The translations under genes and the position numbers were made by a program. This document shows, piece by piece, positions 19,341-51,167 of a stretch of DNA of 64,000 bases (within the stretch, counting starts at the first letter, position 1; each line of letters begins with the position of its first letter). The stretch comes from an uncultured Collinsella sp. (GTDB lineage: Bacteria; Actinomycetota; Coriobacteriia; Coriobacteriales; Coriobacteriaceae), in NCBI GenBank assembly GCA_949285915.1, contig CASDZW010000004.1, forward strand, positions 1-64,000. Reading direction: 5' to 3'. The notes under the pieces were generated by a model. That model did no database searches. It worked only from the letters and a program-made list of their open reading frames with translations, and had not been told where the DNA came from.

Positions 19341-19446
19341 GGGCGGGACGACCACAAGGCCCCCGCTTCGAACAGTCCTCGAAAAAAGAGCCCTGCGGGG
19401 CTCTTTTTTCTGTGGAACTTGCGGGGACCTTGTGGTCGCCCCGCCC
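19341..19446. repeat. Structured intergenic element A (variable arms, conserved core)
   Basis: Outer arms 19341-19366 and 19421-19446 are complementary at 24 of 26 positions. Between them lie the core CGCTTCGAACAGTCCTCG (19364-19381) and a perfect terminator hairpin. Two other elements, at 50364-50450 and 51067-51167, share this core but have different arms. It occupies nearly the whole gap between htpG and the convergent acetyltransferase gene. Confidence 0.75.
19382..19409. terminator. Bidirectional rho-independent terminator
   Basis: AAAAAAGAGCCC, a 4-nt TGCG loop, then GGGCTCTTTTTT. The stem is perfect with A and T runs on both sides, so it can stop transcription from htpG (plus) and from the acetyltransferase (minus). 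It is the inner part of the structured element spanning 19341-19446. Confidence 0.9.
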
Positions 19447-19470
19447 TATGGCGTGTCGCTTTGGCAGCGA

Positions 19471-19902
19471 CTACAGCTTCATCGTGTAGTAGCGGTGATC
19501 AAAGACCATGCCCTCGCGCTCGTAGAAGCGATGTGCGCCTTCGCGCCAGCAGCTTGTCTCGAGCTCGATCTGAACACAGCCTGCCTTGCGCGCGGCTTCG
19601 CATCCGGCGCGGAAGAGCTCTTGCCCAATGCGGCTCCCGCGGCAGGCCGGGTCGACAACAAGCTCCAGAATACCCGCCACGCGTGCGGCGTGGTGCAGCT
19701 GGTCTTCAAATCGGATGTTGATAAGCCCCGCCGCCGGCGCGCCGGGCGTCTCGCGGGCAACCAAGCAGCAAAACGAGGGGTTTTCGAGCTGCGCCTCAAA
19801 GATTTCCTTGCAGCGCGCGTAATCGAGCTCGGTGTTCTCGAGGATGCACTCGAGTTCAATCACGCGGTCGGTATCGGCAAGCGGAGCGTTCTCGATAATC
19901 AC
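19471..19902 (-). CDS. GNAT-family N-acetyltransferase
   Basis: A 143-aa single-domain acetyltransferase. The acetyl-CoA binding region ILELVVDPACRGSRIGQEL (about residues 78-96) contains the R-G-x-x-I/G-x-x-L type loop (motif A: CRGSRIGQEL). The C-terminal RFYEREGMVFDHRYYTM is the usual GNAT end. The GTG at 19902 lies 8 bp from AAAGG and gives the normal domain length; upstream sequence is not conserved. The substrate is unknown. It ends against structured element A, convergent with htpG. Confidence 0.85.
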   Translation of the reverse strand: MIIENAPLADTDRVIELECILENTELDYARCKEIFEAQLENPSFCCLVARETPGAPAAGLINIRFEDQLHHAARVAGILELVVDPACRGSRIGQELFRAGCEAARKAGCVQIELETSCWREGAHRFYEREGMVFDHRYYTMKL

Positions 19903-19978
19903 CGGTATTCCTTTCGCCCATATCAGCCAAAGCCCATTGTAAGCGAAGCCTAAGGCGTGAGCGCGAGGCGGCAGAAAT

Positions 19979-20009
19979 GCAGGAAGCCGGCGCGTGGCCG
20001 GCTTCCTGC
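19979..20009. terminator. Perfect 13-bp hairpin, possible terminator
   Basis: GCAGGAAGCCGGC (19979-19991), a 5-nt loop, and its exact complement (19997-20009). There is no adjacent T run on either strand, so termination efficiency is uncertain. It lies between the small ORF and the acetyltransferase gene, both on the minus strand. Confidence 0.5.
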
Positions 20010-20050
20010 GAGTCGCTGTGGTACGTCCGTGACTGCGGAAAAAAAGAGAG

Positions 20051-20272
20051 CTATAGGTTAGCCGCATGGGCAAGCGGCAAGGTGTTGAGCGCCTCGAGGA
20101 GCTCGTCGCTCGAATGCAGAAGGTTTTGCACCTGGTCGTTCGAGCGAGCGGACGACGGCGGGGGAGAGCAGAGGAGGCAGGTTCTCTGTGTTGGGGGGAA
20201 GGAGAGGTTACCAGCACGGTCCTCACGGTATGGGTGTCGCCGTGCTAAGGCTGCATGTTGGGAGCTATGCAT
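20051..20272 (-). CDS. Hypothetical 73-aa protein
   Basis: The ATG at 20272 follows a near-ideal ribosome binding site, GAGGAGG with 5-nt spacing. The frame encodes 73 residues. The last 30 (from about NDQVQNLLHSSDELLEAL to the end) are amphipathic and use the GC-rich codon choice of neighbouring genes. The first half is Pro/Ser/Arg-rich with two nearby Cys (CLLC) and looks less protein-like. I do not recognise it. A recently decayed gene or a leader peptide are alternatives. Confidence 0.3.
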   Translation of the reverse strand: MHSSQHAALARRHPYREDRAGNLSFPPTQRTCLLCSPPPSSARSNDQVQNLLHSSDELLEALNTLPLAHAANL

Positions 20273-20436
20273 CGCAACCTCCTCGCTCATCCGCCGGTGT
20301 CGCACGCGCGCCGGCTGCTGCGTTTCCGGTGCGCTGATGCCATTATCGCCAAGTTGCGACGGGCAATACTTATGGGTGAGTGAAGACTTACTTATATCGC
20401 CTTGAAGGGTTCGTGTATGGCGTGCTACCAGCTGAT

Positions 20437-21288
20437 TTATGCGCTTACCGCGCGAATCTGTGCGAGCACGCGCTCCATGGTCTCGTCGATGTTGGCGCGT
20501 TTGAGCTCGCATTCCCAGATGGTGATGACGGTCCAGCCCGCCTCCTCGAGCGCCGCTACCGCAGCGCGGTCGCGCTCGATGTTGCGGCGAAACTTTGCCT
20601 CCCAGAAGGCGGTGTTTCGCTTGGGTACGCTCGGGTGGCAATGGGGGCAGCGATGCCAGAAGCAGCCGTTTACAAAGATGGCGATCTTGCGCCCGGGGAA
20701 GGCGATGTCGGGCCTGCCGGGGGCCTTGGCCCACTGCAGGCGGTACCCCGTGAGCCCGGCGGCGCGCAGACGCTGACGCACGAGCAGCTCGGGCTTGGTG
20801 TTGGCGCGTTTGTTGCCCTTCATGGACTTGCGGATGGCGGTGCGGCGGCGTACGAGTTCCCCCTCGACCGCGCGCCCGGCATCGTCTCCTTGGGCAAGGG
20901 CCTCTACAAGGCCGGTGTCAGCGGGCATCCAAGTGAGCTCGCTAAGGCGTTCACGCTCGATCCAGCGCAGGCCGAGCTGTCGGTCAGAGAGGCGCGGGCT
21001 TCCCGCGGAAATCTCGCAGAAGAAGCACTCCATCGACAGGTGGAAGTCGGGGTAATCGTATTCGACGGTATAGAACGCCTGCAGGTTCTCGACGGTAACA
21101 TCGAGCTCCTCGGCAAGCTCGCGACGGCAGGCGTCCTCGGGCGTCTCGCCGCGCTCGACCTTGCCACCGGGGAATTCCCATAGGCCGCGCATCTCTCCGT
21201 AGCCGCGTTGCACGGCGAGCACCTCGGACGTGGCGGACGATTCTGCCGTGCGGCGGATGATGCCGGCGGCAACATGTATCGTCTTCAA
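20437..21288 (-). CDS. MutT (Nudix) - Vsr endonuclease fusion
   Basis: A 283-aa protein with two DNA-fidelity domains. Residues 1-135 are a MutT-type Nudix hydrolase: G42, E48, R56, E57, E60 and E61 of the Nudix box are present (GGKVERGETPEDACRRELAE). Residues 150-270 are a very-short-patch (Vsr) mismatch endonuclease: NTKPELLVRQRL, catalytic Asp194 in GRPDI, NGCFWHRC with His212, zinc-type Cys215/Cys218, and WTVITIWECEL. The TTG at 21288 lies 7 bp after GGAGGT and gives a normal MutT start. Vsr nicks at T:G mismatches left by deamination of 5-methylcytosine. No Dcm-type methylase is in the window. The domains are in one uninterrupted frame. Confidence 0.88.
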   Translation of the reverse strand: MKTIHVAAGIIRRTAESSATSEVLAVQRGYGEMRGLWEFPGGKVERGETPEDACRRELAEELDVTVENLQAFYTVEYDYPDFHLSMECFFCEISAGSPRLSDRQLGLRWIERERLSELTWMPADTGLVEALAQGDDAGRAVEGELVRRRTAIRKSMKGNKRANTKPELLVRQRLRAAGLTGYRLQWAKAPGRPDIAFPGRKIAIFVNGCFWHRCPHCHPSVPKRNTAFWEAKFRRNIERDRAAVAALEEAGWTVITIWECELKRANIDETMERVLAQIRAVSA

Positions 21289-21453
21289 GGTGCTCACCTC
21301 CCGGCGGCGCTGCATTTTTAGGTTCCGAGGTCCTATGCTAGCAAAATCGTATCGCCGCCGCCTCGCTTTGTGTCCGCGCGAATCGCTATGATAGGGCATA
21401 ACGACGCATTCTATGGCGCCGCGCGCGGGCGCCATTGTGAGAGAGGCACTGCT

Positions 21454-23904
21454 ATGTCTGCCCAAGAGATCAAGATTCCCCTGCTCTGCCAGGCAACGCA
21501 TCTCAAGGCGCTTCCTGCGCAGGCGGAAGGGTCGCGCTATGCCGTGTGCTGGGGCGCTGGTATGCCGGAGCCCGAGGGTGGCCTTGGTTACCTTATCGAT
21601 TTCACGGGCAAGCGCACCGGGTACGTGATCGCGTGGATCCAAGACGGCGGCTACGTTTACGCCTGCGACGGATACCTCAACGCCATCCCGGAACGCGAGC
21701 CCGACCTGAGCGTCGCCCGCTGGCGCAGCAACCCGCGCACGGGGCGCATCGCACTGCGTACGTCCGGCGGCGAGGAACGGCAGGTAACGGAGTACAAGCA
21801 GCTCGATGACGGGTCCTACGTGTTCGTCGACCCGGTGAGCGACCTTGGGCCTGTGTACAGCGCGGCGGCCGTCAATCTCCGGCAGATGCTCGCGGTGGCC
21901 TTTCTTGCCTTCTGGCATCTCCCCCGGCGCGCGGACGCGGGCGCCGCGTCCGGCAAACGCATGGGCGAGGTCCTGACGGCGTTTTCGGACCTTCCTCCGG
22001 CAGATGCGATCGATGCGTTTTTGGGCGAGGTCAAACGAGGCGAGCGCACCTCTGGGTTTGAGCGCTATGCTGCGCGGATTCTGACTGATGCCGACCCTGT
22101 CACCCTTCGAGCGCTTACCGCGCGCCATGAGATTTCGCTGCGCCGCTTGAGGACAACGGGGCTCTTTTGGTTCGCGTGCGATATCGACGAGCTTAACGAG
22201 GAGGAGTTCGATGCGCTGACGACGATGGAAGGCGCGCTCAATCGCCTCGCCCTTATCGCCCGCCGCGCGCACGAGAATGGGGCGGATGACCTTTCTGCAG
22301 CGTCGGAGGCGTACTGCGCCGACGAGGACTGGCGCTGCGTGCGCGCCATTACCGACCAGACGGCGCCCTACCTCAAACAGGCGGCGTATACCGATAATCG
22401 CCTGCTCAACCTGTTTGGCACCATGGGCGAGCGCGGGGGCGAGTGGGACCTGCGCACGCGCGTTGCCATCCTTCTTGAGGAGCTGGCGCTGCCCTTCAGG
22501 CTTACCTATCGTTTTTCTGCCGATGCCTCGCAGGGTGCGGTGACAATCACCGCAAAGGTTCCAGGTGCGCAGGCAATGCCGCGCTGGGTCCGCGCGCAGG
22601 CGCCGGGTGAGGAGGCAAGCCCCCTTGCGGATTGCAGCGGCCACGCTGAGGTTGCGGCGAGCGCCTATGCCCTCCGTCTTGCCACCGCCCTTGCCACGGT
22701 GGGGTTCAGCGCCAGCGCAGGCGTGGGCCGCGTACAGGTGGTTCTTTGCGAGGACCGCGCGTTTGAACACCCGCTGCTGCGCATGGACGTGGATCGCGAG
22801 GGCTTCATCATGTCAGTCTACGATGTCGTGCGCAAAGGCGTTCTCTCTGAGCCGCGCCTCACGTGGAGTGTGAGCGGCATCAAAGAGCAGCTTTCGGCGG
22901 CACGCCTCGCGTTCACGCTGAATGAGCGCCTGGGTCTGGAGCCCCTGGTCTTGCCGGAAGAGGAACTCGCCGATCCAGACGCGGCGCGCACCTGCCCCGT
23001 TTGGGAAGACACCCGTTCGCTTACGCCAGAGCTCGCCGAGTTTCTTCATGCGGAGCGCGTATGTGACCTTGACGTGTACCACCTGGGCGAGGACCCGTTT
23101 GTCGGACGCCTGCGCGAGGCAATTGCCCTCGCGGACGGGCGTCCCGCCGAGGCGGCCCAGCAGCTCTCTGACCTGTTGGGCGTCATGAGCCTTATGGACG
23201 AGGACACCGGGCTGCGGCCGCTCTATTGCGCAAGTGGCGCGTCTCGCCTTGCGATGGCGCTTGTTGACGACGACCCGGCGGCGCGGTATCGCTACGTCTA
23301 CGACTCGCAGTACGACGCGTATGTCTCCCTCGCAAACCTCTGCACCGACAACGGCGATGCCGAGCACGGGGCTGCCTACGCCGAGCAGGCGATTGAGCTC
23401 GGCCCGACCTCGCCGAGCGCCTATATCGCAGCAGCGACGGCCGAGTCTAAGCTCGGCGAGCTCGAGAAGGCGGCAGAGCACCTCACGTGCGCCCTGCGTT
23501 TTGATGTCGATCCGGCGTCGTTCACCTACACGTATTACCGACTTGCCTTTGTGCTGTGGCGCATGGCCGACTACCGGACGAGCCTTGCCTGCTACCAGCG
23601 CGCGCTGCCCAACCCGCGCCTGCGCGAGATGGTTGAGGAGGAGATGCGCGATCTTATGACGGCGGCATCCGTCGAGAGCCGCCTGGAGCCGGAGGACGTG
23701 AGAGGCATACTTGATGCCGCGGAGATTCCGATCGCACCGAGCGACGAGATCCTCGAGGTTGCTGCGCGCGCGACGGTTCTGGCGGCCGACGCGGGCTTTT
23801 TGAACCTCGCGCATTCCTACGGGCAGGTGCTCAGCCGTGTGGTGGGAGATGACGCCTTTGCGTCCACCCTAGCCTCGATGCGTCCACGGAAGCCCGTGCG
23901 TTAA
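21454..23904 (+). CDS. Large tetratricopeptide-repeat protein of unknown function
   Basis: An 816-aa soluble protein with no signal peptide or membrane helix. The C-terminal third has at least two TPR-like units (YDAYVSLANLCTDNGDAEHGAAYAEQAIELGPTSP is the clearest by eye, about residues 625-660, followed by one starting SAYIAAATAESKLGELEKAAEHL). The first 600 residues have no domain I recognise. The start has GAGAGGCA upstream. It stands alone, divergent from the MutT-Vsr gene. TPRs point to protein-protein interaction only. Confidence 0.75.
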   Translation: MSAQEIKIPLLCQATHLKALPAQAEGSRYAVCWGAGMPEPEGGLGYLIDFTGKRTGYVIAWIQDGGYVYACDGYLNAIPEREPDLSVARWRSNPRTGRIALRTSGGEERQVTEYKQLDDGSYVFVDPVSDLGPVYSAAAVNLRQMLAVAFLAFWHLPRRADAGAASGKRMGEVLTAFSDLPPADAIDAFLGEVKRGERTSGFERYAARILTDADPVTLRALTARHEISLRRLRTTGLFWFACDIDELNEEEFDALTTMEGALNRLALIARRAHENGADDLSAASEAYCADEDWRCVRAITDQTAPYLKQAAYTDNRLLNLFGTMGERGGEWDLRTRVAILLEELALPFRLTYRFSADASQGAVTITAKVPGAQAMPRWVRAQAPGEEASPLADCSGHAEVAASAYALRLATALATVGFSASAGVGRVQVVLCEDRAFEHPLLRMDVDREGFIMSVYDVVRKGVLSEPRLTWSVSGIKEQLSAARLAFTLNERLGLEPLVLPEEELADPDAARTCPVWEDTRSLTPELAEFLHAERVCDLDVYHLGEDPFVGRLREAIALADGRPAEAAQQLSDLLGVMSLMDEDTGLRPLYCASGASRLAMALVDDDPAARYRYVYDSQYDAYVSLANLCTDNGDAEHGAAYAEQAIELGPTSPSAYIAAATAESKLGELEKAAEHLTCALRFDVDPASFTYTYYRLAFVLWRMADYRTSLACYQRALPNPRLREMVEEEMRDLMTAASVESRLEPEDVRGILDAAEIPIAPSDEILEVAARATVLAADAGFLNLAHSYGQVLSRVVGDDAFASTLASMRPRKPVR

Positions 23905-23920
23905 GGATTCCTTTAGCCTA

Positions 23921-23949
23921 CCTTACAAAACTGCAAGTCGGCTGTAAGG
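23921..23949. promoter_or_regulatory. Inverted repeat upstream of the BceAB-like operon
   Basis: CCTTACA (23921-23927) and TGTAAGG (23943-23949) form a 7-bp inverted repeat with a 15-bp spacer, about 60-85 bp before the small membrane protein. This is the expected place for an activator or repressor of the operon. The regulator is not encoded next to it. Confidence 0.4.
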
Positions 23950-23972
23950 CAAATCGATGGATAGCGCAAACG

Positions 23973-23998
23973 CCTCCTGACACTATAGTGCCAGGAGG
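23973..23998 (+). promoter_or_regulatory. Hairpin that sequesters a ribosome binding site
   Basis: CCTCCTGACAC (23973-23983), loop TATA, GTGCCAGGAGG (23988-23998): 10 of 11 pairs. The 3' arm contains the whole AGGAGG Shine-Dalgarno of the small membrane protein starting at 24007. In RNA this hairpin would block initiation until melted. As DNA the TATAGT centre could also be a -10 or an operator. Confidence 0.55.
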
Positions 23999-24006
23999 TG
24001 TTTTAC

Positions 24007-24204
24007 ATGGATACCCTTTCAACCAATGCCATGTATACGAACATGACGAGAAAAAGTCCGTACGACCCCGAGCCTGTGCGCGATCGTCCGCGCAGCCGCA
24101 TTGTTCGCGCCGGTATGTCGGTCGTGGAGATGGTGGTGTGGATTGTCATCATGGCGGTGCTCGCCATCGGCATGATCGCCCTGCTCTGGAACGTCTCCAA
24201 ATAA
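24007..24204 (+). CDS. 65-aa single-pass membrane protein, first gene of BceAB-like operon
   Basis: A soluble, Arg/Pro-rich N-terminus of about 38 residues (YDPEPVRDRPRSRIVRAG) is followed by one hydrophobic helix (SVVEMVVWIVIMAVLAIGMIALLW, about 38-61; the SVVEMVVWIVIMAVLAI pattern recalls a short transmembrane anchor). The AGGAGGTG 6 bp upstream makes the start clear. It precedes the ABC ATPase by 57 bp. It could be an accessory subunit or regulator of the transporter; I know no named family. Confidence 0.7.
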   Translation: MDTLSTNAMYTNMTRKSPYDPEPVRDRPRSRIVRAGMSVVEMVVWIVIMAVLAIGMIALLWNVSK

Positions 24205-24261
24205 CGCGGGCGTGCACGGCGCCCAAACCTGTACCGTATCTCTTATCGAGAAAGGATCGCT

Positions 24262-25107
24262 ATGCTTCCGGCAACTATGACCTCGAGCCCGGCGCGGGCT
24301 GACCTTAGCAAGCTCCCCCAAACCTCTGCGCCGGCAACGTCTGCGCCGGTGCTCGAGGTGCGCCATGTAGAGAAGGTCTACGGCAACCGCCAAAACGTCA
24401 CGCGTGCGCTGAACGACATCTCGTTCACCGTTTCACGCGGCGAGTTTGTGGGCATCATGGGCGCCTCGGGCTCCGGCAAGTCGACGCTGCTCAACTGCGT
24501 GTCGACCATCGACGCCGTCACGTCGGGCCAGGTGCTTATCGACGGTACCGATGTGACCCGTATGAAGAGCGGCAAGCTCGCGCGCTTCCGCCGCGAGCAG
24601 CTCGGCTTCATCTTCCAAGATTCCAATCTGCTCGATACGCTGACCGCACGCGAGAACATCGCGCTGCCGCTCACCATCAGCCATGTGCCCGCGCGCGAGG
24701 TGCTGCGTCGCGTGGACGAGATGGCTCAACGCCTCGGCATCCGCGAGATTCTGGAGAAGTACCCCTATCAGATGTCGGGTGGCCAGCAGCAGCGCGTTGC
24801 CGCGGCGCGAGCGCTCGTGACCGATCCCGCCCTCATCATGGCGGACGAGCCCACCGGTGCCCTCGACTCCAAGAACGCGCGCCTGCTTCTTGAGAGCTTC
24901 GAGACCATGAACGAGCGTCTGCGCGCAACGGTGCTCATGGTGACTCACGACAGCTTTGCCGCGAGCTACACGCACCGCGTGCTCTTTATTCGCGACGGCA
25001 AGATCTTTACCGAGCTTCGTCGCGGCGGCTCCACGCGTCAGGCGTTTTTCGAGCGCATCATGGAGGTCGTGGCGATGATGGGCGGTGAGGGTTCCGATGC
25101 TCTGTAA
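24262..25107 (+). CDS. BceA-type ABC transporter ATPase
   Basis: A 281-aa ATPase of the antimicrobial-peptide transporter (MacB/BceA) class. An extension of about 30 residues precedes [11 protein letters not shown]. Walker [10 protein letters not shown] is at 67-75, with [19 protein letters not shown] (Q-loop, typical BceA), [15 protein letters not shown] and [14 protein letters not shown]. It overlaps the permease start by 11 bp. The start follows GAAAGGA. It probably works with the 732-aa permease in resistance to or sensing of cell-wall-active peptides. No two-component system is directly adjacent, unlike most Bce modules. Confidence 0.93.
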
Positions 25108-27295: not shown

Positions 27296-27311
27296 GCGTT
27301 GCAAGATAACG

Positions 27312-27351
27312 GGCCGTGCCCCGTTCCCGGGCGCGTTTACGGGGCACGGCC
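27312..27351. terminator. Strong hairpin after the BceAB-like permease
   Basis: GGCCGTGCCCCG (27312-27323) is the exact complement of 27340-27351, a 12-bp stem with a 16-nt loop, 17 bp after the stop. CTTCTGTTT follows. Likely a terminator for the operon. Confidence 0.75.
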
Positions 27352-27420
27352 GCTTCTGTTTGCGGAAAGAGAGACAAAGAACCGTTCGCAGGGGATGGTT
27401 TGGCAGCCGCTTTGCGGGGT

Positions 27421-27630
27421 CTTGGTCAATGAAACGCTTCAAATAATTATCTGGTCGGGCGAGCGCCGAGCCGGGTTTTGACCGTCTAGATAAAACCCCA
27501 GCTAGAAGAGGCGGCAGTGGAAAGGGGCCGAGGCAAAAAGGTCGTCGGGAACGGTGAGAAGGCCGTTTTTCAAGCCAAGCCCCTCCGTTTTGGGCCCTGA
27601 ATCATTATTCGAAGCGCTTCAATGACCAAG
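27421..27630. repeat. 210-bp element with 27-bp inverted ends (MITE-like)
   Basis: Ends 27421-27447 and 27604-27630 are complementary at 24 of 27 positions. Each contains a TGAARCGCTTC palindromic centre. No reading frame is shared between them. A short internal hairpin is at 27473-27498 (GGGTTTT/AAAACCC). It fills most of the 423-bp gap between the permease and the yxeA-like gene. No target-site duplication is obvious. It could be a non-autonomous transposable element, or a pair of operators for a LacI-type regulator embedded in a longer repeat. Confidence 0.6.
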
Positions 27631-27718
27631 CTGGCGTGAGGCAACGACGAATTGGTTGTTCCTGAGGCGCTGAAAAGTCATAAGCGAGGAATTGGCGAGT
27701 CCCGAAAGCGAGGTTGCT

Positions 27719-28253: not shown

Positions 28254-28289
28254 GCGCATTGAGCGCGGTAGATGGTATCTAGACAACAA

Positions 28290-28318
28290 AAGGGCGCCGC
28301 GGGTTGCGCGGCGCCCTT
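28290..28318. terminator. Terminator between convergent genes
   Basis: AAGGGCGCCGC (28290-28300) pairs with GCGGCGCCCTT (28308-28318), 11 bp and a 7-nt loop. It lies between the 41-aa peptide gene (plus) and the ABC-2 permease gene (minus), and CAACAAAA precedes it on the plus strand, giving a T-rich tail for the minus-strand transcript. Confidence 0.75.
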
Positions 28319-31102: not shown

Positions 31103-31182
31103 CGTCCGCCGGGATGTTCCCTAAGCGCGCATTCCGCAGGCCGAAGGCCGAGGACGCGCGCGTGGGAACTTCCCGGCGGACG
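31103..31182. repeat. Long inverted repeat between SPFH and RHH genes
   Basis: CGTCCGCCGGG (31103-31113) pairs with 31172-31182, and GTTCCC (31116-31121) with 31164-31169. GCGCG and CGCGC blocks then continue the stem inward, and the centre holds GCAGGCCGAAGGCCGAGGAC. It sits a few bases after the SPFH stop on the minus strand, so it could terminate or attenuate transcription into the RHH gene. The architecture recalls the three CAGTCCTCG elements but the core differs. Confidence 0.6.
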
Positions 31183-31190: not shown

Positions 31191-32222
31191 TTAATAGAGC
31201 GAGCCAGCGTTCACGATGGGCTTCGCCTCGGACTCGCCGCAAAGGACGACCATGAGATTCGAGGCCATCTGCGCCTTGCGCTCCTCATCGAGCTCGATCT
31301 TGCCATGCTGACCGAGCTCGTCCACGGCCATCTCCACCATGGTGACAGCACCCTCGACAATCTTCTTGCGCGCGGCGATGACGGCCTCGGCCTGCTGACG
31401 GCGGAGCATCGCCTGAGCGATCTCGGGTGCGTAGGCAAGGTGCGTGAGGCGTGCGTCGTCCACGGCCACGCCGGCGGGCGAGAGGCGCTGCGTGAGCTCG
31501 TGCTTGAGCGCCGTGGAGACCTCTTCGATATTGGAGCGCAGCGTGATGGAGTCCATGGAGTCGCTCGAGTCCTCGGCGTGGTCGTAGGCGTAGATGCTCG
31601 CCACGTGGCGGAGCGCTGTCTCTGCCTGCGTGGCCACAAACTGCTCGTAGTTGTCCACGTCAAAGAGGGCTTTGGCGGTGTCGGCCACGTGCCACACCAC
31701 GACGTTGGCAATCTCGATGGGGTTACCCATCTTGTCGTTGACCTTCAGGATCTCGCCGTTGAGCGTTCGGGCGCGGACGGAGACCTTGGTGGAGAGGGCC
31801 TTGGTCGCTTTGGTTGCCGTCTCAATCTGCTTGCCGAGCGAGAGCCCGGACTTGCTGATGACCTCGGCCGTGGCGTTCTCGGCGGCGCCATCGGAGCCCA
31901 TGGAGCGGCTGTAGAACGGGTTTGCCCAGCGGAAGCCCTCGTCGCGGACAGTGCCTTTGTAGTCGCCGAAGAGGATGCAGACGCGCGCCTGGCCCGGCTG
32001 CAGCGTGAAGAAGCCCGAGACGAGGATGCACCAGGCGATGAAGAGGACGACGCTCGCGATGCCCATGATGACGGGGAGCGTGGCCGACTCGCCGGAATCC
32101 TCCGTGGCGACGGCGAGCACGATGCCGCCGACGAACAGGGCAATGATGACAACGATCCCAACGAGGCTCACCGCGAGCATGCCCCAGCCGGACGCAGCTT
32201 TGATCTTCTTCTCGGTACTCAT
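31191..32222 (-). CDS. SPFH/Band-7 domain membrane protein
   Basis: A 343-aa protein. Two N-terminal hydrophobic segments (about residues 14-38 and 48-70) are followed by an SPFH domain from [33 protein letters not shown] to about residue 260, and an Ala/Glu-rich helical region ([24 protein letters not shown]) typical of flotillin/prohibitin-like oligomers. The start follows GAAGGGAA. It organises membrane microdomains in known relatives; the client here is unknown. It heads a minus-strand run through the RHH gene to an ABC exporter. Confidence 0.9.
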
Positions 32223-35406: not shown

Positions 35407-36630
35407 ATGACGCAGGTTGTTGAGCGCGCCGACGCGCGTGAGGGAATGAGCGCGGCGCAGTGGCTGCCGCTTGTAGGCATGACGTTTCTGGCGTTTGTCT
35501 TCAATACGTCCGAATTCATGCCGGTGGGGCTGCTCACCAACATCGCGGCTTCCTTCTCACTTTCTGAGGCGGCTGCCGGCATCATGATCTCGGTCTACGC
35601 ATGGGGCGTCATGCTGTTGTCGCTTCCGCTTATGGTCGCGGCCTCGCGTTTCTCGTTCAAGCCGCTGCTGCTGGGTGTGGTGGCGCTCTTTGCCGCGGGG
35701 CAGGCGTGCTCGGCAATTGCGCCCACCTTCGAGTTGCTGACGGTGGCGCGCCTCTTGGTAGCTGCTGCGCACGCTGTCTTCTGGGCGATCGCCCCGGTTA
35801 TGGCAACGCGCATCGCCGGGACCCGCCACGCGGCACTCGCCCTCAGCATGATCGCTACGGGCACCTCCATCGCGTCGGTGGCGGGTATGCCGCTCGGCCG
35901 CGCCATTGGCTTGGCGCTGGGCTGGCGCATGACTTTTGGATGCGTGGGCGTTATCGCCGCGGTGCTCCTGGTTTATCAAGCAGTGGTGTTCCCGCAGCTG
36001 CCGGCGGGCGAGCCGTTTAGCCTGCGCCGTCTGCCCGAGCTTCTGGGCAACCGCGTCCTCGTGGCGCTCTACGTAGTGACGATGTGCCTTGCCACCGGCT
36101 ACTACGCGGGCTACGGCTATATCGAGCCCTTCCTCGGCCAGATTGGTGGGTTTGACGATGCCACGACAACGCTGCTTCTCACGGTATTTGGCGCAGCGGG
36201 GTTTGTGGCGAGCTTCCTCTTTGCCCGGTTCTTCGACGGACACCGCTACCATTTTGTGGGGATCATGATCGTGGGCTTTACGGCGATGCTCTTTTGCCTA
36301 CAGGTAGCGGCCGTGTCCCTCGCGACCACGGTGGCGGTCTGCCTTCTGTGGGGCATCTGCGGTACGGCGTTTAACATTGCGCTGCAGGCGATGCTGATGG
36401 ACGCCGCGCCCGAGGACGACGCAACGGTGGCGATGGCCATCTACTCGGGACTCTTCAACTTTGGCATCGGTACGGGTACAGCCATTGGAGGCGTGGTGGT
36501 GTCCAACATTGCGCTTTCTGCCATCGGTTATGCGGGCGGCGCGATTGCGCTGGTGGGCGTGGTGCTCGCAATCGGCTGGCTCTTCCGTCTGGACCGCGCG
36601 GCCCGTGTTGCTCGCGCAGGGCGCGCGTAG
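35407..36630 (+). CDS. MFS sugar efflux transporter, SotB-like
   Basis: A 407-aa, 12-helix major facilitator. FNTSEFMPVGLLTNIA in TM1, LMIATGTSIASVAGMPLGRAIG around TM5 and YAGYGYIEPFL match E. coli SotB (L-arabinose/IPTG efflux) closely in pattern. GGGGGAG precedes the ATG at 35407; an in-frame ATG four codons earlier is too close to it. It lies alone between the pfl genes and panE-like gene. Related proteins also export drugs or arabinose-type sugars, so the natural substrate is open. Confidence 0.88.
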   Translation: MTQVVERADAREGMSAAQWLPLVGMTFLAFVFNTSEFMPVGLLTNIAASFSLSEAAAGIMISVYAWGVMLLSLPLMVAASRFSFKPLLLGVVALFAAGQACSAIAPTFELLTVARLLVAAAHAVFWAIAPVMATRIAGTRHAALALSMIATGTSIASVAGMPLGRAIGLALGWRMTFGCVGVIAAVLLVYQAVVFPQLPAGEPFSLRRLPELLGNRVLVALYVVTMCLATGYYAGYGYIEPFLGQIGGFDDATTTLLLTVFGAAGFVASFLFARFFDGHRYHFVGIMIVGFTAMLFCLQVAAVSLATTVAVCLLWGICGTAFNIALQAMLMDAAPEDDATVAMAIYSGLFNFGIGTGTAIGGVVVSNIALSAIGYAGGAIALVGVVLAIGWLFRLDRAARVARAGRA

Positions 36631-39410: not shown

Positions 39411-39416
39411 AAAACC

Positions 39417-42398: not shown

Positions 42399-42491
42399 GG
42401 TGCTCCTGGTCCGGATTGGTTGTCACCATCCTAGCAGAGCCGAGGCACGAAATGGGAGGTATTGGCGCCGGCATGGTGGCAGCTCTTGAGA

Positions 42492-44859: not shown

Positions 44860-44864
44860 GGATC

Positions 44865-45833
44865 TCACCGCCCGCTTGTGCGTTCGTCGCTAGCGCCGTG
44901 GTCGCGCAGCTCGCTACCGGTAATCTGGAGAAAGACGTCGTTTAGGGTGGGCGGTTCGGAGTACACGCGTACGGGCGTCACGCCAAAGCTTGTCAGCACC
45001 TCAAGCACCGCGGTCAAATGGCTCTCGCCTTGCGCGCAGGCAACATGCAGCTCGCGCCCCCGGTAGCTCGCCGATACGGTGGCAGGCAGGTAGCGCACGG
45101 CGTCAAGTGCGGCCTCTGGCAGATCGGTGACCTCGACCACAATCTTTTCGCCGATACCGATCATGCCCTTGAGCTCGCCCACTGTGCCCTCGGCCACGGC
45201 GCGACCGCGGTCCATGATCATGATGCGGCTGCAGATCTGCTCGACTTCCTCCATATAGTGGCTCGTGTAAACCACGGTGGCGCCGGCGTCCACGAGCTCA
45301 AGGATGCCGGAGAGGATGGCGTTTCTACTCTGCGGGTCCACAGCGACGGTGGGCTCGTCAAAGAAGATGAGTTCCGGCTCGTGGGCGATGCCGCAGGCGA
45401 TGTTGAGGCGGCGCAAGAGGCCGCCGGAGAGCTTCTGCGGGCGGAAGTGGCGGAAGTCGTCGAGACCCACGAAGGTAATGGCGCGGTCCACGAGCGTGCG
45501 GCGACGCGTGCGGTCCGTCACGTAGAGCGAGCAGAACGCGTCGATGTTCTCCTCCACGGTGAGCTCGTTGAAGACGGCCACCTGTTGCGGCACGATGCCG
45601 ATGCGTCGTTTGAGGTCGTAGCGCCTAGGCCCCATCGTCTCGCCGAAGAGCTCGATCGCGCCCTTATCGTAGGTCAAAAGCGACAGCATGCAGTTGATGG
45701 CGGTGGTTTTGCCGCAACCGTTGGGGCCAAGGAGGCCCAGAATCTCGCCGCGTTCGACGGTAAGGTCGAAGTGGTCTAGGGCGACGAGGTCGCCGTAGCG
45801 TTTGACGAGCTGGCGTACCGATACGATGGCCAT
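44865..45833 (-). CDS. ABC exporter ATP-binding protein
   Basis: A 322-aa ATPase of the drug/lipid export class. Walker A GPNGCGKTT is near residues 37-45, with VPQQVAVFNELTVEENI as the Q-loop, LSGGLLRRLNIACGIAHEPELIFFDEPTVAVDPQSR as signature and Walker B, and YTSHYMEEVEQIC as the switch. The C-terminal extension is typical of DrrA-like proteins. AGGAGGA precedes the ATG at 45833. It starts the minus-strand exporter operon, back to back with a NarL-type two-component system. Confidence 0.93.
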   Translation of the reverse strand: MAIVSVRQLVKRYGDLVALDHFDLTVERGEILGLLGPNGCGKTTAINCMLSLLTYDKGAIELFGETMGPRRYDLKRRIGIVPQQVAVFNELTVEENIDAFCSLYVTDRTRRRTLVDRAITFVGLDDFRHFRPQKLSGGLLRRLNIACGIAHEPELIFFDEPTVAVDPQSRNAILSGILELVDAGATVVYTSHYMEEVEQICSRIMIMDRGRAVAEGTVGELKGMIGIGEKIVVEVTDLPEAALDAVRYLPATVSASYRGRELHVACAQGESHLTAVLEVLTSFGVTPVRVYSEPPTLNDVFLQITGSELRDHGASDERTSGR

Positions 45834-45913
45834 GGGGGTCCTCCTGTTCATGTCTTTGGGTGCGGACGCCTCCAAACTAGTTGCAGTATCGCGCGATGGC
45901 GACAGGGCGGGAA

Positions 45914-45927
45914 GTGACGTTTGTCAC
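45914..45927. promoter_or_regulatory. Palindrome in the divergent exporter/two-component promoter
   Basis: GTGAC-GTTT-GTCAC lies in the 131-bp gap between the ATPase gene (minus) and the kinase gene (plus). LuxR/NarL-family regulators commonly use such palindromes. It could let the NarL-type regulator encoded downstream control both directions. Confidence 0.45.
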
Positions 45928-45964
45928 GGTTTTCGGCTGCGTCGGCGTACGTTAGACTGACGCT

Positions 45965-47104
45965 ATGGAGAGGTTGTATGACAAGTTGATTCTGTTGGCT
46001 GCCATGGTTGCTTCGGGCATTGCGTTTGCGCCGCGCACGGCCACCGTCGCATGTCTGCTGGTGGGTGCAACGGCGACGTTTCTGGTTGAAGCGTTCCGGA
46101 TGCCTGCACGCCGCTGCCCGGGGCGAGGTATGCCAGACGGTGGAGAGACGCTGCTGCCGGTGGGTATATGCGTGCTTGCCCTGGCGGTGCCCGAGGCAAC
46201 CTTCGCTCTGCCGCTTGCGACCTACGATTTAGCGGGCAGCTCGCACCGTGCGCTGCTCGTACTGCCCGCACTTGCCTTGGTGGCAACGTTGCGGGCGGCT
46301 ATCGTTCCCGTAGCCGCCGCGATTCTACTGGTCGGTCTTACGGTCGCGGCCTGCCTTCTTGCGTGGCGGACCAAGGGGACGCTGGCACAGCGTCTTGCCA
46401 CCCGACGGCAGCGGGATGACCTCGCCGCACGCTCGCAAGCGCTTGAGGTCCAGAATCGCGAGCTGCGCGACAAGCGTGAGCTCGAGGTGCGGGTTGCCGT
46501 GCTAGAGGAGCGTTCGCGCATCGCGCGTGAGATTCACGACAACGTGGGGCACCTGCTCACGCGCGCCCACCTGCAGGCAAAGGCGTATCAGGTGGTGTTT
46601 GCCAAAGACGAGCGGGCGTGTCAGGCGTTCGAGGCGCTGGGGGAGAACCTCTCTGAGGCGCTCGACACCGTGCGTGCGAGCGTGCACGATCTGCACGATG
46701 ACCATATCGACCTCACAGCGCAGATCGAGCGCATAGCAGCCGAGAGCGGGCTTTCCGTGCGCTGCCAGTTGGAGGCTACGGTCGCCCCGCCCGAGGTCGC
46801 TGCGTGCCTGCGCGCCGTGGCGCGCGAGGCGCTCTCTAATATCGCGCGTCATGCCGTCGCGCGCGATATCTCGCTTTCTTTGGTGGAGTATCCCGGCTTC
46901 TGGCGGCTGACGATAGAGAATGACGATCTGCGCGGACATGGTCCGGACTATCGTCCCGCGGCTCACGGCGGGATGGGGCTTATCTCACTTGAGGAACGCG
47001 TCCAGGCGCTCGGCGGGACGTTTCGCGCCGGTCCCATCGGCGGAGGTGCGCAGCCGGGTGGCTGGCGCGTATTTGCGAGCATTCCCAAACGGCGGACGGC
47101 ATAG
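45965..47104 (+). CDS. NarL-type (HisKA_3) sensor histidine kinase
   Basis: A 379-aa kinase with four or five N-terminal membrane helices (about residues 8-42, 65-90 and 95-137) and no large external domain. The HisKA_3 motif RSRIAREIHDNVGHLLTRA carries the phosphoryl His in EIHDNVGH. The ATPase domain is degenerate in parts (N-box EALSNIARHAVA; GMGLISLEERV as G2). The compact sensor is like DesK/LiaS types that monitor the membrane. It is followed by its regulator and divergent from an ABC exporter. Confidence 0.88.
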   Translation: MERLYDKLILLAAMVASGIAFAPRTATVACLLVGATATFLVEAFRMPARRCPGRGMPDGGETLLPVGICVLALAVPEATFALPLATYDLAGSSHRALLVLPALALVATLRAAIVPVAAAILLVGLTVAACLLAWRTKGTLAQRLATRRQRDDLAARSQALEVQNRELRDKRELEVRVAVLEERSRIAREIHDNVGHLLTRAHLQAKAYQVVFAKDERACQAFEALGENLSEALDTVRASVHDLHDDHIDLTAQIERIAAESGLSVRCQLEATVAPPEVAACLRAVAREALSNIARHAVARDISLSLVEYPGFWRLTIENDDLRGHGPDYRPAAHGGMGLISLEERVQALGGTFRAGPIGGGAQPGGWRVFASIPKRRTA

Positions 47105-47115
47105 CGGGAGGCATG

Positions 47116-47865
47116 ATGAGGGTTGCGATTATCGACGACGATGCGCTGGTGTGCGAGTCTCTGAGCATCATCCTCGGTGCGGAGGCCGATATCGATGTAG
47201 TCGGTTCTGGCACTGACGGCGACGCGGCTGTGTGCCTCTATGCGGAGGCGGCGCCGGATATCGTGCTTATGGACATCCAGATGCCGGGGCGGGACGGTCT
47301 TTCCGCCGCACAGGAGATTCTTGCTCGCGACCCGGCGGCGCGTATCGTTTTCCTCACCACGTTTTCCGATGATGAGTACATCGTGCGCGCCCTTGCGCTG
47401 GGCGCGCGGGGCTACCTCATCAAGCAGGACGTTGCTGCCGTCGCGCCGGCACTGCGTGCGGTTATGGGCGGGCAGAGCGTGCTCGAAGGCGAGGTCCTCG
47501 CCCGCGTCTCGTGCATGAACACGCCGGCATTGCGAGCTAGCGCAGCGCCGGCGGTAGCGGCGACAGGGGCGACAGGAGAGGTGGGTGCGTATGGGGGAGC
47601 GTCACCGCACGCCGCGCGCCTAGCTATGCCGACGGCAACTGCCCATCAAGCGGTTTCCGCTACCGACCCGTTTGCCTGCCTCACCGAGCGTGAGCGTGAG
47701 GTGGCTGAGCTCATCGCCGCCGGTCTCGACAACCGCGAGATTGCGCAGGCGGCATATCTCAGCGAGGGCACGGTCCGCAACCACATCAGTACGATTCTCT
47801 CCAAGCTCCACCTCAAGAACCGTACGCAAATCGCTATCGCCTACTGGCGTTGCACCGCCGAATAA
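47116..47865 (+). CDS. NarL/LuxR-type response regulator
   Basis: A 249-aa regulator. The receiver has D8-D10 and phosphoacceptor Asp in IVLMDIQMPG (about residue 53), with GYLIKQD carrying the conserved Lys. A linker of about 60 Ala-rich residues is longer than usual. The LuxR helix-turn-helix LTEREREVAELIAAGLDNREIAQAAYLSEGTVRNHIS completes it. The ATG at 47116 (5 bp from GGGAGG) is chosen over that at 47113. It likely controls the divergent exporter genes. Confidence 0.9.
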   Translation: MRVAIIDDDALVCESLSIILGAEADIDVVGSGTDGDAAVCLYAEAAPDIVLMDIQMPGRDGLSAAQEILARDPAARIVFLTTFSDDEYIVRALALGARGYLIKQDVAAVAPALRAVMGGQSVLEGEVLARVSCMNTPALRASAAPAVAATGATGEVGAYGGASPHAARLAMPTATAHQAVSATDPFACLTEREREVAELIAAGLDNREIAQAAYLSEGTVRNHISTILSKLHLKNRTQIAIAYWRCTAE

Positions 47866-48021
47866 GGCCGACAATCGACAAAGGCGGACGCGAGAACGGC
47901 TTCTGGCAAAGAGGGCGGATGCGCCGTCCATGGCAAAGGCGGGATAGTGCCATAAAAAAGCCATGAACTCGAGAAACCATGAGCGTCCGTGCCGCTTCTC
48001 TGCATGAGCCTCTTCTGATAG

Positions 48022-48055
48022 TATCACCATGGTGATAGATATCACCATGGTGATA
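48022..48055. promoter_or_regulatory. Two identical 16-bp palindromes upstream of the DUF3990/HTH pair
   Basis: TATCACCATGGTGATA occurs at 48022-48037 and again at 48040-48055, 18 bp centre to centre (so nearly two turns). They lie 26 bp before the DUF3990 start. Perfect palindromes in tandem at a promoter are typical operators; the HTH protein encoded downstream is the likely autoregulator, as in toxin-antitoxin operons. Confidence 0.7.
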
Positions 48056-48080
48056 GTAGTTAGCAGAGAGAGGGCATTCA

Positions 48081-48752
48081 ATGGAACTCTGGCACGGCTC
48101 GTCGCAGATTATCGCCTCTCCGCGTCTAGATATCGGGAGGCCCCGCAACGATTATGGCCGCGGTTTTTATACCACGCCTCATCGGGAGCTTGCGAAGGAG
48201 TGGGCATGTCAGAAGAAAGGGCGCGATGGGTTTGCCAACCATTACGAGCTCGATGCGGAAGACCTTGTTGTGCTCAATTTGGAGGCGCCAGAGTACTCGG
48301 TTCTCCACTGGATTGCCCTGCTTCTGCAACATAGGATTTTTCAGATTACGGCCGGCGTTGAGGCCGAGGGTAAAGCGATGCTCATCGAGCGATTTGGTAT
48401 CAATGCCGATGATTACGACATCGTTGTAGGGTATCGGGCGGATGACTCGTATTTCTCCTACGCGGCAAGCTTCCTTGCCAACACCATTTCCGTTCGTCAG
48501 CTTGCCCAGGCGATGAGGCTGGGCAAGCTGGGGACGCAGGTGGTCCTAAAGAGCGCGCGGGCGTTTGAGCGCCTTCGTTATCTCGGTTATGAAGAGGCTC
48601 CCTCTCATCCGTATTACGCGTTGCGGCTTGCGCGCGATATTGAGGCGCGCGAGGACTATCGCAAATTAGCAGGCACTTTCGATCGCGATGGCGTGTATTT
48701 GAGTGATATTTTGCGAGGAGGTATTTCCGATGATGATCCGCGATTGTTCTGA
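48081..48752 (+). CDS. DUF3990-family, ADP-ribosyltransferase-like protein (probable toxin)
   Basis: A 223-aa protein. MELWHGSSQIIASPRLDIGR followed by NDYGRGFYTTPHRELAKEWA is the N-terminal signature of DUF3990, a group with an ADP-ribosyltransferase-like fold (H in WHGS, YGRGFYTT). It lacks membrane segments. AGAGAGGG precedes the start, and the stop is 23 bp inside the next gene. Codon use is more AT-rich than in neighbours, a sign of recent transfer. Pairing with an HTH partner under tandem palindromes suggests a toxin-antitoxin-like module; the target and substrate are unknown. Confidence 0.75.
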   Translation: MELWHGSSQIIASPRLDIGRPRNDYGRGFYTTPHRELAKEWACQKKGRDGFANHYELDAEDLVVLNLEAPEYSVLHWIALLLQHRIFQITAGVEAEGKAMLIERFGINADDYDIVVGYRADDSYFSYAASFLANTISVRQLAQAMRLGKLGTQVVLKSARAFERLRYLGYEEAPSHPYYALRLARDIEAREDYRKLAGTFDRDGVYLSDILRGGISDDDPRLF

Positions 48753-49443
48753 GCAAAACGCCGATGGTGCCCTAATCGGTGCATATTCAGAGATGTATGT
48801 GGCAGATGCTATGCATCGTCTCGGCGGGTTTTTTGATTACGCCGTGAACGACTATGGGGCTGAAGGCGATGAGATTGCGGATCTGTTTTGCATGAGCGAT
48901 CTTTCCCATTCATTTGAGTGCGGCGAGCCGTGGACGGTGGCGGGAAAATCAGGTGCAGAGCTCTTTGCCTGTTTGAGCGAAGAGCTAGGTTACACAGATG
49001 CCGTGTTCCCTGAGCCGTGCGCGCGCTATGCTGCCACCATCGAGTATTGGATAGGTTGGACGGCGGCATACGTGCAATGGCGCTTGAAAATGACCTTTGA
49101 TGAACTGTTTACCATTGTCCCCTATGATGAGTTCGCTCGGCTGTATTACCCTTGGCATGAAGCGTCGGAAGAGCGCTTTGTCTATCTCGTTATCGATAGG
49201 ATGCGGATGGATGGAGAGGCGGCGCCAACAAGGTTGGCAGCGTTGCGCAAAGGGCTGCGTCTTTCGCAGCGCGAGCTTGCCTGCCGCTCTGGTGTTGGTC
49301 TACGCTCCATCCAAATGTACGAGCAACGGCAGAAGGACATCAACAAGGCTCAGGCGCAAACGCTGCTGAAGTTGTCACGTGTCCTCTATTGCTCGATGGA
49401 AGACTTGATGGAGCCGGTGTTTACGATGAACGAGGCAGCATAA
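48730..49443 (+). CDS. Protein with C-terminal XRE helix-turn-helix, probable antitoxin
   Basis: A 237-aa protein. Residues 1 to about 160 are a helical domain I do not recognise. The C-terminus (about 168-232) is an XRE-type HTH: RLAALRKGLRLSQRELACRSGVGLRSIQMYEQ, then LLKLSRVLYCSMEDLMEP. Having the HTH at the C-terminus is unusual. The ATG at 48730 follows GCGAGGAGG and lies within the DUF3990 gene. It likely neutralises the DUF3990 protein with its N-terminal domain and represses the pair at the palindromes; that is inference. Confidence 0.7.
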   Translation: MMIRDCSEQNADGALIGAYSEMYVADAMHRLGGFFDYAVNDYGAEGDEIADLFCMSDLSHSFECGEPWTVAGKSGAELFACLSEELGYTDAVFPEPCARYAATIEYWIGWTAAYVQWRLKMTFDELFTIVPYDEFARLYYPWHEASEERFVYLVIDRMRMDGEAAPTRLAALRKGLRLSQRELACRSGVGLRSIQMYEQRQKDINKAQAQTLLKLSRVLYCSMEDLMEPVFTMNEAA

Positions 49444-49467
49444 GCACTTTGCGCGAACGCGTGCCAG

Positions 49468-50349
49468 CTACAGGTATTCGATCTGGGCGCCTTCGGTGTC
49501 GCAGGTGAGGATGTGCGTCTCACACGACGGGAACTGCTCGCGTAGGCGCACCTGCAAAAACTTTGCCACGATGGTGTCGTCCGTGACGGCCATAAGCGTC
49601 GAGCCGGAGCCCGATATCCAGAGCGTTTTGGCGCCGCCGGCAAGACAGGCTTCGCGGATGGCTTCGTAGTCGGGGATGAGCTCGCGGCGGTAGGGCTCTT
49701 GCAGGCGGTCGTCGTTGGCGGAGGCGATAAGAGCGGTGTCACCGGTTTCGAGCCCGCGGGTGAGGCCGGCGATGCGCCCCATCTGCCACACGGCCGTGCT
49801 GAGTGGCACCTCGGTCGGTACCACTTTGCGCGCATCTGCGGTGTGGACCTCGTAGGGCGGGATGATGGTGATGAAGCGCAGGCGCGGGGAGACGTCGTAG
49901 CGAAGGCACCGCGGCAGCTCGCTCTCCGGCGTGAACGAGCATACGGCCGCGCCCAAGATCGCGGGCGCGACGTTGTCGGGGTGGCCCTCAAGCGAGGTGG
50001 CAAGCGCCACGAGCTCTTCGCGGGTAACGGTGTGGTTAGTGAGCGCGGCTGCCCCCATGATGCCCGCGACTACGAGGGTCGAGCTGGAGCCCAGACCGCG
50101 CGCGACGGGTACCTCGGTTTCGATATGGATCGACACGGGGAAGGACTCCTCGCCCCACGTCTCAAGAGCATAGAGGAAGGCCTGGTAGACCATGTTGTCG
50201 GCGTTGCGGAACTCCTCGGGGCAGCCCGTGATGGTGAGTTCGCTGGCGCGGTCCATTGTGACATGGGCATAGAGCGACACCGCCATGCCGAGCGTGTCGT
50301 ACCCGATGCCGAGGTTAGCGCTCGTGGCCGGAACGGTGATCTTGATCAT
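49468..50349 (-). CDS. thrB: Homoserine kinase
   Basis: A 293-aa GHMP kinase (homoserine to O-phosphohomoserine, threonine synthesis). The ATP loop PVARGLGSSST is near residues 82-92, MIKITVPATSANLGIGYDTLGMAV is the typical N-terminus (ANLGxGxD), and TLWISGSGSTLMAV is the C-terminal GHMP motif. The start follows AGGAGGAGACC. It is minus strand, not adjacent to thrC, which is 830 bp away past decayed genes. Structured element C lies just upstream of its start and could affect its transcription. Confidence 0.95.
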   Translation of the reverse strand: MIKITVPATSANLGIGYDTLGMAVSLYAHVTMDRASELTITGCPEEFRNADNMVYQAFLYALETWGEESFPVSIHIETEVPVARGLGSSSTLVVAGIMGAAALTNHTVTREELVALATSLEGHPDNVAPAILGAAVCSFTPESELPRCLRYDVSPRLRFITIIPPYEVHTADARKVVPTEVPLSTAVWQMGRIAGLTRGLETGDTALIASANDDRLQEPYRRELIPDYEAIREACLAGGAKTLWISGSGSTLMAVTDDTIVAKFLQVRLREQFPSCETHILTCDTEGAQIEYL

Positions 50350-50363
50350 GGTCTCCTCCTAGG

Positions 50364-50450
50364 CGATGGGCCTATTCCCTTCGCTGCTCGAACAGTCCTC
50401 GCTTCGCTTCGCTCGCTGCGGAGCTCGCTACGAAGGGAATAAGCCCATCG
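50364..50450. repeat. Structured intergenic element C (variable arms, conserved core)
   Basis: Arms CGATGGGCCTATTCCCTTCG (50364-50383) and 50431-50450 are complementary at 19 of 20 positions. The core CGCTGCTCGAACAGTCCTCG (50383-50402) is shared with the elements at 19341-19446 and 51067-51167. No terminator follows in this copy; instead a GC-rich stretch around GCTCGCTGCGGAGCTCGC. It sits just upstream of the thrB start on the minus strand. Confidence 0.75.
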
Positions 50451-50471
50451 TCTCTGGCGAGTTTACCGTGT

Positions 50472-50741
50472 ATGAGCGGTGCTACCGAGCGTCTTTATCC
50501 TAACAGGGGCGGGTTCTGTGTGCTTCTGCGTTCGAATCGGAAACAGTCAATCGTTGCCAGAGCCTACAGCTACCCACCCAAATCTGCGGCATTGGTGCTC
50601 ATGCTTTCGCGTGGTGCTCTGCCAAATCGTCAGCTTAAGTTTGTTTTGGCGTGGGCTGAGCTCCATAATGATGAGCTCATGCAAAACTGGGAGCTTGCCG
50701 CAGCGGGAAAGCCATTGAACCCCATCGACCCGTTGATGTGA
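50472..50741 (+). pseudogene. DUF4160 remnant
   Basis: The C-terminal half reads GALPNRQLKFVLAWAELHND and then ELMQNWELAAAGKPLNPIDPL, the characteristic end of DUF4160 proteins (about 75-90 aa). The first 45 residues do not resemble the family; the usual HxH segment and surrounding strands are absent in all three frames. It is followed by a DUF2442 gene, the usual partner. Probably the remains of a functional copy altered by deletion or frameshift. Confidence 0.6.
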
Positions 50742-50750
50742 GGAGCCGCT

Positions 50751-51050
50751 ATGGAGTATTTGCCACGTGTTGTCTAGACGGTCGCGGGCGACGATTACAC
50801 GGTCTACGCCTATTATTCCGACGGGTCCGTACGGCTTGCGGATATAAAGCCGCTTATCGAGCGAGGTGGAGTTTTCTCACAATTGGCGGATCCGGATTTT
50901 TTCGCAAATAGGCTCACGGTCATGAACGGTGCTGTTGCATGGGGTGTCACAGGCAACCGGGATGAGACCGCATGCATTGATCTTGATCCGTGGAACATGT
51001 ATGAGACGAGCGAGTGCGTAGCTGATCCGCTTGCTGAAGAAGCCGCATAA
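50751..51050 (+). pseudogene. DUF2442 gene with an early nonsense codon
   Basis: ATG at 50751 behind GAGGAG, then MEYLPRVV and an in-frame TAG at 50775-50777. The reading frame continues open for 90 more codons to TAA at 51050, with a recognisable DUF2442 body (YTVYAYYSDGSVRLADIKPL, then AVAWGV and LDPWNMYETS). No alternative start lies near the stop, so the copy is inactive unless the stop is suppressed. It pairs with the DUF4160 remnant just upstream, a common gene couple of unknown role. Confidence 0.75.
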
Positions 51051-51066
51051 CCTAAGTTTCTGTATT

Positions 51067-51167
51067 GGCGGCAACCGCACCGCCCGTCGCGAGTTCCGCA
51101 GAAAAAAGAGCCCTTAGGGGCTCTTTTTTCGAGGACTGTTTGAGCAGCGGACGGTGCGGTCGCCGCC
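51067..51167. repeat. Structured intergenic element B with terminator (thrC 3' end)
   Basis: Arms 51067-51086 and 51148-51167 are complementary at 18 of 20 positions. Inside lie a perfect AAAAAAGAGCCC/GGGCTCTTTTTT terminator (51102-51129) and the core CGCTGCTCAAACAGTCCTCG on the minus strand (51130-51149). It follows the thrC stop by 12 bp on the coding strand, so it works as the thrC terminator and, in the other direction, ends the decayed DUF genes. Confidence 0.8.

Follow-up and report, generated by a model that had tools for sequence, protein, structure and literature searches.

REP-like intergenic palindromes with a conserved tip and variable complementary arms in Collinsella and distant bacteria

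Three intergenic sites in an uncultured Collinsella sp. raise the question of what kind of element keeps a common core while its complementary arms differ from copy to copy. The sites lie in a stretch of 64,000 nucleotides (GenBank assembly GCA_949285915.1, contig CASDZW010000004.1, positions 1 to 64,000, forward strand), hereafter the window. They had been described in an earlier note, made from the sequence alone, as a possible terminator module, RNA or recombination hotspot. We read them, with moderate confidence, as mobile palindromic DNA elements similar to repetitive extragenic palindromic (REP) sequences, which would be recognised as a folded strand by a putative trans-acting factor and would often be co-opted as terminators.

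Paired arms that differ between copies and a conserved core were present at all three places, and a covariance model of core plus stem (R1), used for counting copies, matched them with E-values of 1.5e-10 (19351-19436), 1.4e-14 (50372-50442) and 1.1e-15 (51075-51159). R1 also found a fourth copy, additional to the earlier note (31112-31173, minus strand, E 7e-7), and a fifth match, at 35994-36054, was no better than chance (E 0.34). Taken by itself, the short core (CRAACAGTCCTCG, at most two mismatches) occurred at chance in the window (6 observed, 3.6 expected), whereas the R1 E-values were significant, so that core and structure together stand above chance. Compared with dinucleotide shuffles, elements 1, 2 and 3 had fold z-scores of -10.3, -7.0 and -8.8, each equalled by 0 of 200 shuffles, and element 4 had a z-score of -8.2. 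The copies in the window and their parts are:

19341..19446, plus strand: element 1, flanked by the 3' ends of an HSP90 and a GNAT gene
19341-19366 and 19421-19446: arms of element 1, 26 nt, 92% complementary
19367-19381 and 19411-19420: core of element 1, TTCGAACAGTCCTCG and TGTGGAACTT
19382-19409: inner terminator-like hairpin of element 1
50361..50453, plus strand: element 2, beginning 11 bp before the start codon of a gene for a GHMP kinase (by context homoserine kinase)
50361-50383 and 50431-50453: arms of element 2, 23 nt, 91% complementary
50384-50401 and 50415-50426: core of element 2, CTGCTCGAACAGTCCTCG and CTGCGGAGCTCG, with a short inner hairpin
51067..51167, minus strand: element 3, 12 bp past the 3' end of the threonine synthase gene
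51067-51086 and 51148-51167: arms of element 3, 20 nt, 90% complementary
51147-51130, minus strand: core of element 3, CTGCTCAAACAGTCCTCG, enclosing a terminator-like inner hairpin
31103..31182, minus strand: element 4, a short-core copy with arms 31103-31121 and 31164-31182, 8 bp downstream of a Band 7 gene (31191-32222, minus strand)

Across aligned copies, the core consensus was GCUCRRACAGUCCUCG on the 5' side and CUGCGGAACUSGC on the 3' side. Read from 5' to 3', a variable outer stem is followed by GC, the bulge UCRRAC, AGUCC, UC and a variable inner hairpin closed by a G-C pair, and then by UGC, GG, a bulged A, ACU, C or GC, GC and the return of the outer stem, which together form a conserved asymmetric internal loop (GC-UCRRAC-AGUCC-UC-G ... 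C-UGC-GG-A-ACU-S-GC). The core given in the earlier note was real but incomplete, as its 3' side runs on as CTGCGGAACTCGC, and the near-identical AAAAAAGAGCCC terminator hairpin reported for two copies was present but is enclosed by the core as its inner hairpin and does not lie beside it. A short-core subtype is without the UCRRAC bulge and carries ACGUCC..GGaAUGU, compatible with a helix; both subtypes share the tip, in which UCCUCG and CUGCGGA flank the inner hairpin.

The outer stems covaried strongly in two alignments. In A1 (27 sequences), 14 of 16 outer pairs changed on both sides, with 137 double-changed cells compared to 54.8 after shuffling, and in A2 (16 sequences) this held for 11 of 16 pairs, with 83 cells compared to 26.8; none of 500 shuffles was as high in either case. 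The AGUCC/GGaACU pairs were invariant in both alignments, which alone is no proof of pairing. The step from differing yet paired arms to a selected structure was not supported as it stood: G-U pairs were rare and, on the transcribed strand, no more frequent than A-C, so that renewal of the palindrome at the DNA level fits better than selection of an RNA helix. Similarly, 46 ortholog comparisons, which share sites, yielded 290 changed stem pairs (77 both-side Watson-Crick, 29 both-side other, 184 one-sided), and the one-sided changes comprised 49 G-T, 65 A-C and 70 other pairs; wobble was therefore not preferred. In the wide set of copies, A-C also exceeded G-T on the core strand, both in sense-transcribed (57 v 29) and in antisense-transcribed copies (28 v 8). 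We read this pattern of stem changes as palindrome renewal at the DNA level.

The elements are not confined to the window. R1 counted 23 copies in this genome (E<=0.05), and 59 of 64 genomes of the taxonomic family were positive at E<=0.01, with 0-32 copies each and five genomes without any; these family counts are a lower bound, with 80 candidates scored per genome. A strict pattern gave 35 matches in eight of nine genomes of the genus, compared to none when read backwards, and matched in 21 of 65 genomes of the family. Elsewhere, 23 carrier genomes, chosen because one locus of each matched, held 2-56 R1 copies each and belong to several phyla by record title, the weakest carrier being Propionigenium (6 copies, best E 0.002). 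A wide pattern scan was expected to return about 230 matches by chance (by our own arithmetic, for a very short pattern), and in an outer-stem test 110 of 152 distinct matches, among those listed, exceeded 99% of 3017 arm-swapped controls. Chance palindromes were ruled out by the R1 E-values and this test. Likely members among the matches listed were Collinsella, Enorma, Olsenella, Adlercreutzia, Ellagibacter and Enteroscipio within the Coriobacteriia and, by record title, Bdellovibrio, Bacteriovorax, Omnitrophota, Hydrogenedentota, Chloroflexi, Clostridia, Myxococcales, Dormibacterota and planctomycete-titled metagenome-assembled genomes (MAGs). The 42 weak matches dropped from later counts may include true members (in Coriobacteriia, Propionigenium and Lachnospiraceae).

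Against Rfam release 15, nothing apart from tRNA reached the gathering score in the window or at seven further loci, and none of the families did so on the elements; at E<=5 all matches stayed below threshold (among them MIR7486, isrG and Atu_C8). The core was likewise undescribed in the accessible portions of the literature searched, mostly freely readable papers (including PMC3733652, PMC8040213 and PMC12306157). A phage origin was rejected, as viral contigs held no stretch with the strict pattern and a blast search of plasmids and phages with a 37-nt query gave partial matches only, none at 80% coverage. Separately, the tip TCCTCG-CTTC-GCTGCGG recurred at loci of enterobacterial plasmids (L517, L518) and of a Rhizobium microvirus (L519), where intergenic TCCTCGCTTCGCTGCGG tips lie in hairpins; their R1 scores, obtained after that preselection, were weak (E 0.0008 to 0.01).

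Two carriers have undergone recent amplification. In G070 (a Hydrogenedentota MAG) and G081 (a MAG titled Singulisphaera), the 17 and 29 copies read were near-identical including the arms, in differing surroundings, and in G070 the stem pairs off consensus comprised 16 double Watson-Crick changes compared to 7 one-sided ones. Among 12 orthologous sites that were aligned, two showed an inverted interior inside the same arms (element 1 of the window compared to G004 and G007, and one other). Neighbouring copies within 500 bp were inverted pairs in 11 of 11 cases (plus then minus), with the 3' core sides inward (four genomes; several pairs are orthologous). Direct tandem copies were also present outside the taxonomic family. 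At L289 in this genome, copy pairs occupy both gaps of a three-gene run, the last two genes of which we take to be leuC and leuD. The loci of the Hydrogenedentota MAG (L417-L436) carry a second hairpin, CAGCGATTCTCGGCG-loop-CGCCGAGAATCGCTG, upstream of many copies; its loop is AAA or TTT depending on the copy, as though it had been turned round. Those of the MAG titled Singulisphaera (L437-L456) show copies amid ACAGCCACGGAT-like 12-mer repeats, and some of these copies follow one another in direct tandem at distances of about 190-290 bp.

We propose that a putative trans-acting factor would recognise the core on one folded DNA strand, either in a cruciform or in a hairpin on the lagging strand, and would copy or move the element. 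Replication would switch template inside the palindrome, and because of this switch the arms would stay complementary and the interior would sometimes flip. Copies would be retained in transcribed stretches at gene 3' ends or between genes, and many of them may serve as or enclose terminators there. The family suggests how repeats may build and rebuild terminators. A more tentative proposal, which we regard as rather doubtful, is that mobile palindromes in at least eight bacterial phyla, as counted from record titles that are mostly those of MAGs, have one folded-strand signal in common (the UCCUCG / CUGCGGA internal loop), and that one widespread putative factor renews or builds arms from local sequence and nests hairpins in terminator loops. 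R1 lets the family be counted in any genome, so the question is testable.

Several results weigh against a mobile DNA palindrome. One-sided changes exceeded double Watson-Crick changes in the ortholog comparisons (184 compared to 77), the excess of A-C over G-T was absent from convergent copies (10 v 9) and from those with a short core (6 v 8), and part of it is a position-specific mismatch common within lineages. A clean empty insertion site was not obtained; at groEL, plain and tip-bearing hairpins were both seen, and no pair was close enough for a clean insertion boundary. A mobilising enzyme was not found, and Y1 transposases, which were tested (see below), did not fit. Finally, among the 22 short-core copies of three close species, 18 of the 18 with a left gene within 70 nt lay in sense after its stop codon, which is not required of a purely parasitic DNA repeat.

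This placement supports an alternative explanation, which is possible but clearly less probable: an RNA module, that is, a class of 3'-end hairpins (a 3' stability element or a composite terminator) with an apical internal loop that would be bound by a conserved RNA-binding protein or RNA polymerase and with arms that would often be the gene's own terminator stem. One further short-core copy in the three species lay in a divergent gap and was itself flipped; the split into short and long cores is a text rule, and of the 22 copies counted as short, at least three (two in L334, one in L343) resemble variant long cores. In the wide set, 96 non-duplicate copies were divided into 36 sense-tandem, 26 antisense-tandem, 17 convergent and 3 divergent ones, with 7 overlapping a predicted gene and 7 at a locus edge, and the left gene was closer in 64 copies, the right gene in 18 (gene calls are approximate and made with our own scripts, orientation counts come from a retrained gene caller). 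Divergent gaps were avoided, in line with an RNA module, both in this set (3/82 compared to 8/27 gaps in the window, p 6e-4) and in the three close species (1/33, p 0.008 compared to the window gaps), although the background is small. The stem covariation and the neighbouring genes, which include HSP90, groEL (named from the C-terminus), pyruvate:ferredoxin oxidoreductase and rubrerythrin, point the same way, as do the groEL 3' ends, where the exact tip lay inside the 3' hairpin at 7 of 30 loci and a one-mismatch form at 5 (neither at 18). However, G-U pairs were not in excess on the transcribed strand, interiors were flipped at orthologous sites, near-identical copies were amplified in two genomes, and long-core copies faced both ways in tandem contexts (36 sense, 26 antisense; 7 and 3 in the three close species).

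The idea of a widespread terminator module applies to part of the family, namely the terminator-like inner hairpins of two window copies and the terminator-like stems around the tip at groEL. Many copies probably act like terminators. By sequence, a G+C-rich hairpin with a T-tract was present in elements 1 and 3 and at several groEL sites, and absent in element 2. Like intrinsic (Rho-independent) terminators, most copies sit at gene 3' ends and some have an A-tract/T-tract hairpin inside (elements 1, 3) or in the arms (G070, groEL); unlike them, many copies are without a T-tract, long-core copies also lie directly upstream of start codons, and the conserved internal loop is not a terminator part. 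The groEL 3' ends had plain hairpins in G001, G003, G026, G032 and G051, and a hairpin within a hairpin in G002, where (L501) a tip-bearing terminator-like hairpin sits inside the stem of a second terminator-like one. Hairpins with other tips, GTGTTCGA..CTCAGAACAC or GCTCAAACAGCTTCG..CTCAGAACTGC, were seen at further groEL 3' ends (L504, L510, L511, L512) and at L289:3279-3343, perhaps as a sister family.

Beyond the mobile palindrome that we favour, the suggestion of a recombination hotspot gained some support from the flipped orthologous interiors and from the thr locus, where paired copies enclose different genes. The stretch concerned is:

50454..51066, plus strand: between elements 2 and 3, with DUF4160-like and DUF2442-like frames

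Its genes are absent or replaced by others in relatives, and the DUF2442-like frame scored 22.2 bits, below the cut-off of 23.9, with an in-frame stop near its start. Paired copies could mark a cassette boundary or hot spot where genes swap between operon genes, which we consider improbable. The gap between threonine synthase and kinase held no copy in G006 and G059, one copy without cargo in G008, and two copies in the window (with DUF4160/DUF2442) and in G007 (with GH1 and EamA genes); an AAA_14/DUF4143 gene beside a copy in G004 is missing there in G000. Yet pairs 500-8000 bp apart followed no orientation rule (9 +-, 5 -+, 3 ++, 3 --), the two members of a pair have different arms, the cargo that was read showed no recombinase, and insertion into a permissive gap would give the same picture.

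To our knowledge, known REP families do not extend beyond related species and go together with a Y1 transposase. REP sequences and REPINs with their REP-associated tyrosine transposase (RAYT, TnpA-REP) are intergenic palindromes, single or in inverted pairs, amplified in some genomes (PMC8266576, PMC3733652). By these descriptions our elements are alike in being many-copy intergenic palindromes, single or paired, with conserved unpaired bases and amplification in some genomes, and the close pairs described above show REPIN-like inverted pairing with fixed polarity; they are unlike in that the conserved part is the tip and the arms vary, in having no GTAG/CGTC tag and no Y1 gene beside copies, and in the same tip occurring in distant phyla. 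Mobilisation by a RAYT (Y1, HUH) transposase is very improbable, despite a higher copy number in genomes of the taxonomic family with PF01797 (Y1; 51 of 63 genomes) than in those without (median 20, n=51, compared to median 2, n=12; p 4e-4, relatedness uncorrected). It is unlikely because elements are lacking around Y1 genes, copy-rich genomes are without Y1, and the tags are at background. Around Y1 genes, 70 loci (flanks of about 1.5-2.5 kb, some cut by contig ends) held no R1 match below E 0.05, with one at E 0.86. Y1 was lacking in G005 (24 copies), G029 (22) and G008 (14), and in 13 of the 23 carrier genomes elsewhere, including both with recent amplification (MAGs may be incomplete). At the stem foot of 110 elements, tags were as frequent as at random places (GTAG 5.5 vs 5.0%, CTAC 6.4 vs 4.4%, CGTC 11.8 vs 11.1%, GACG 12.7 vs 10.2%). 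The elements behave like REP sequences, yet the tests run place them outside the RAYT/REP family, and one tip kept across distant phyla, with differing stems and no Y1 at hand, points to a new mobiliser or hairpin-binding factor. Y1-gene surroundings (L373 and elsewhere in the taxonomic family) carried GGGTTGGTTGGGGACGTGTTCC-type repeats, seemingly of another repeat family.

Integron attC sites resemble the elements in their variable complementary arms and in having a small number of conserved, unpaired bases to mark the strand, but their conserved boxes lie at the hairpin foot and not at the tip. A hairpin ribozyme, whose substrate GACAGUCC resembles, was rejected on the ground that the short-core subtype, judged visually, has CGU/AUG in place of the AGU/ACU pairing. 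Small interspersed repeats such as BOX and RUP are likewise short, intergenic, non-coding and able to fold (PMC3049150). Elsewhere in the window, imperfect inverted repeats with GTGCATCTGTCAC-like units, unrelated to the hairpin family, cluster at 4682-4859, and a short near-perfect palindrome, TAGTATCACCATGGTGATA / TATCACCATGGTGATAGTA, lies at 48019-48058.

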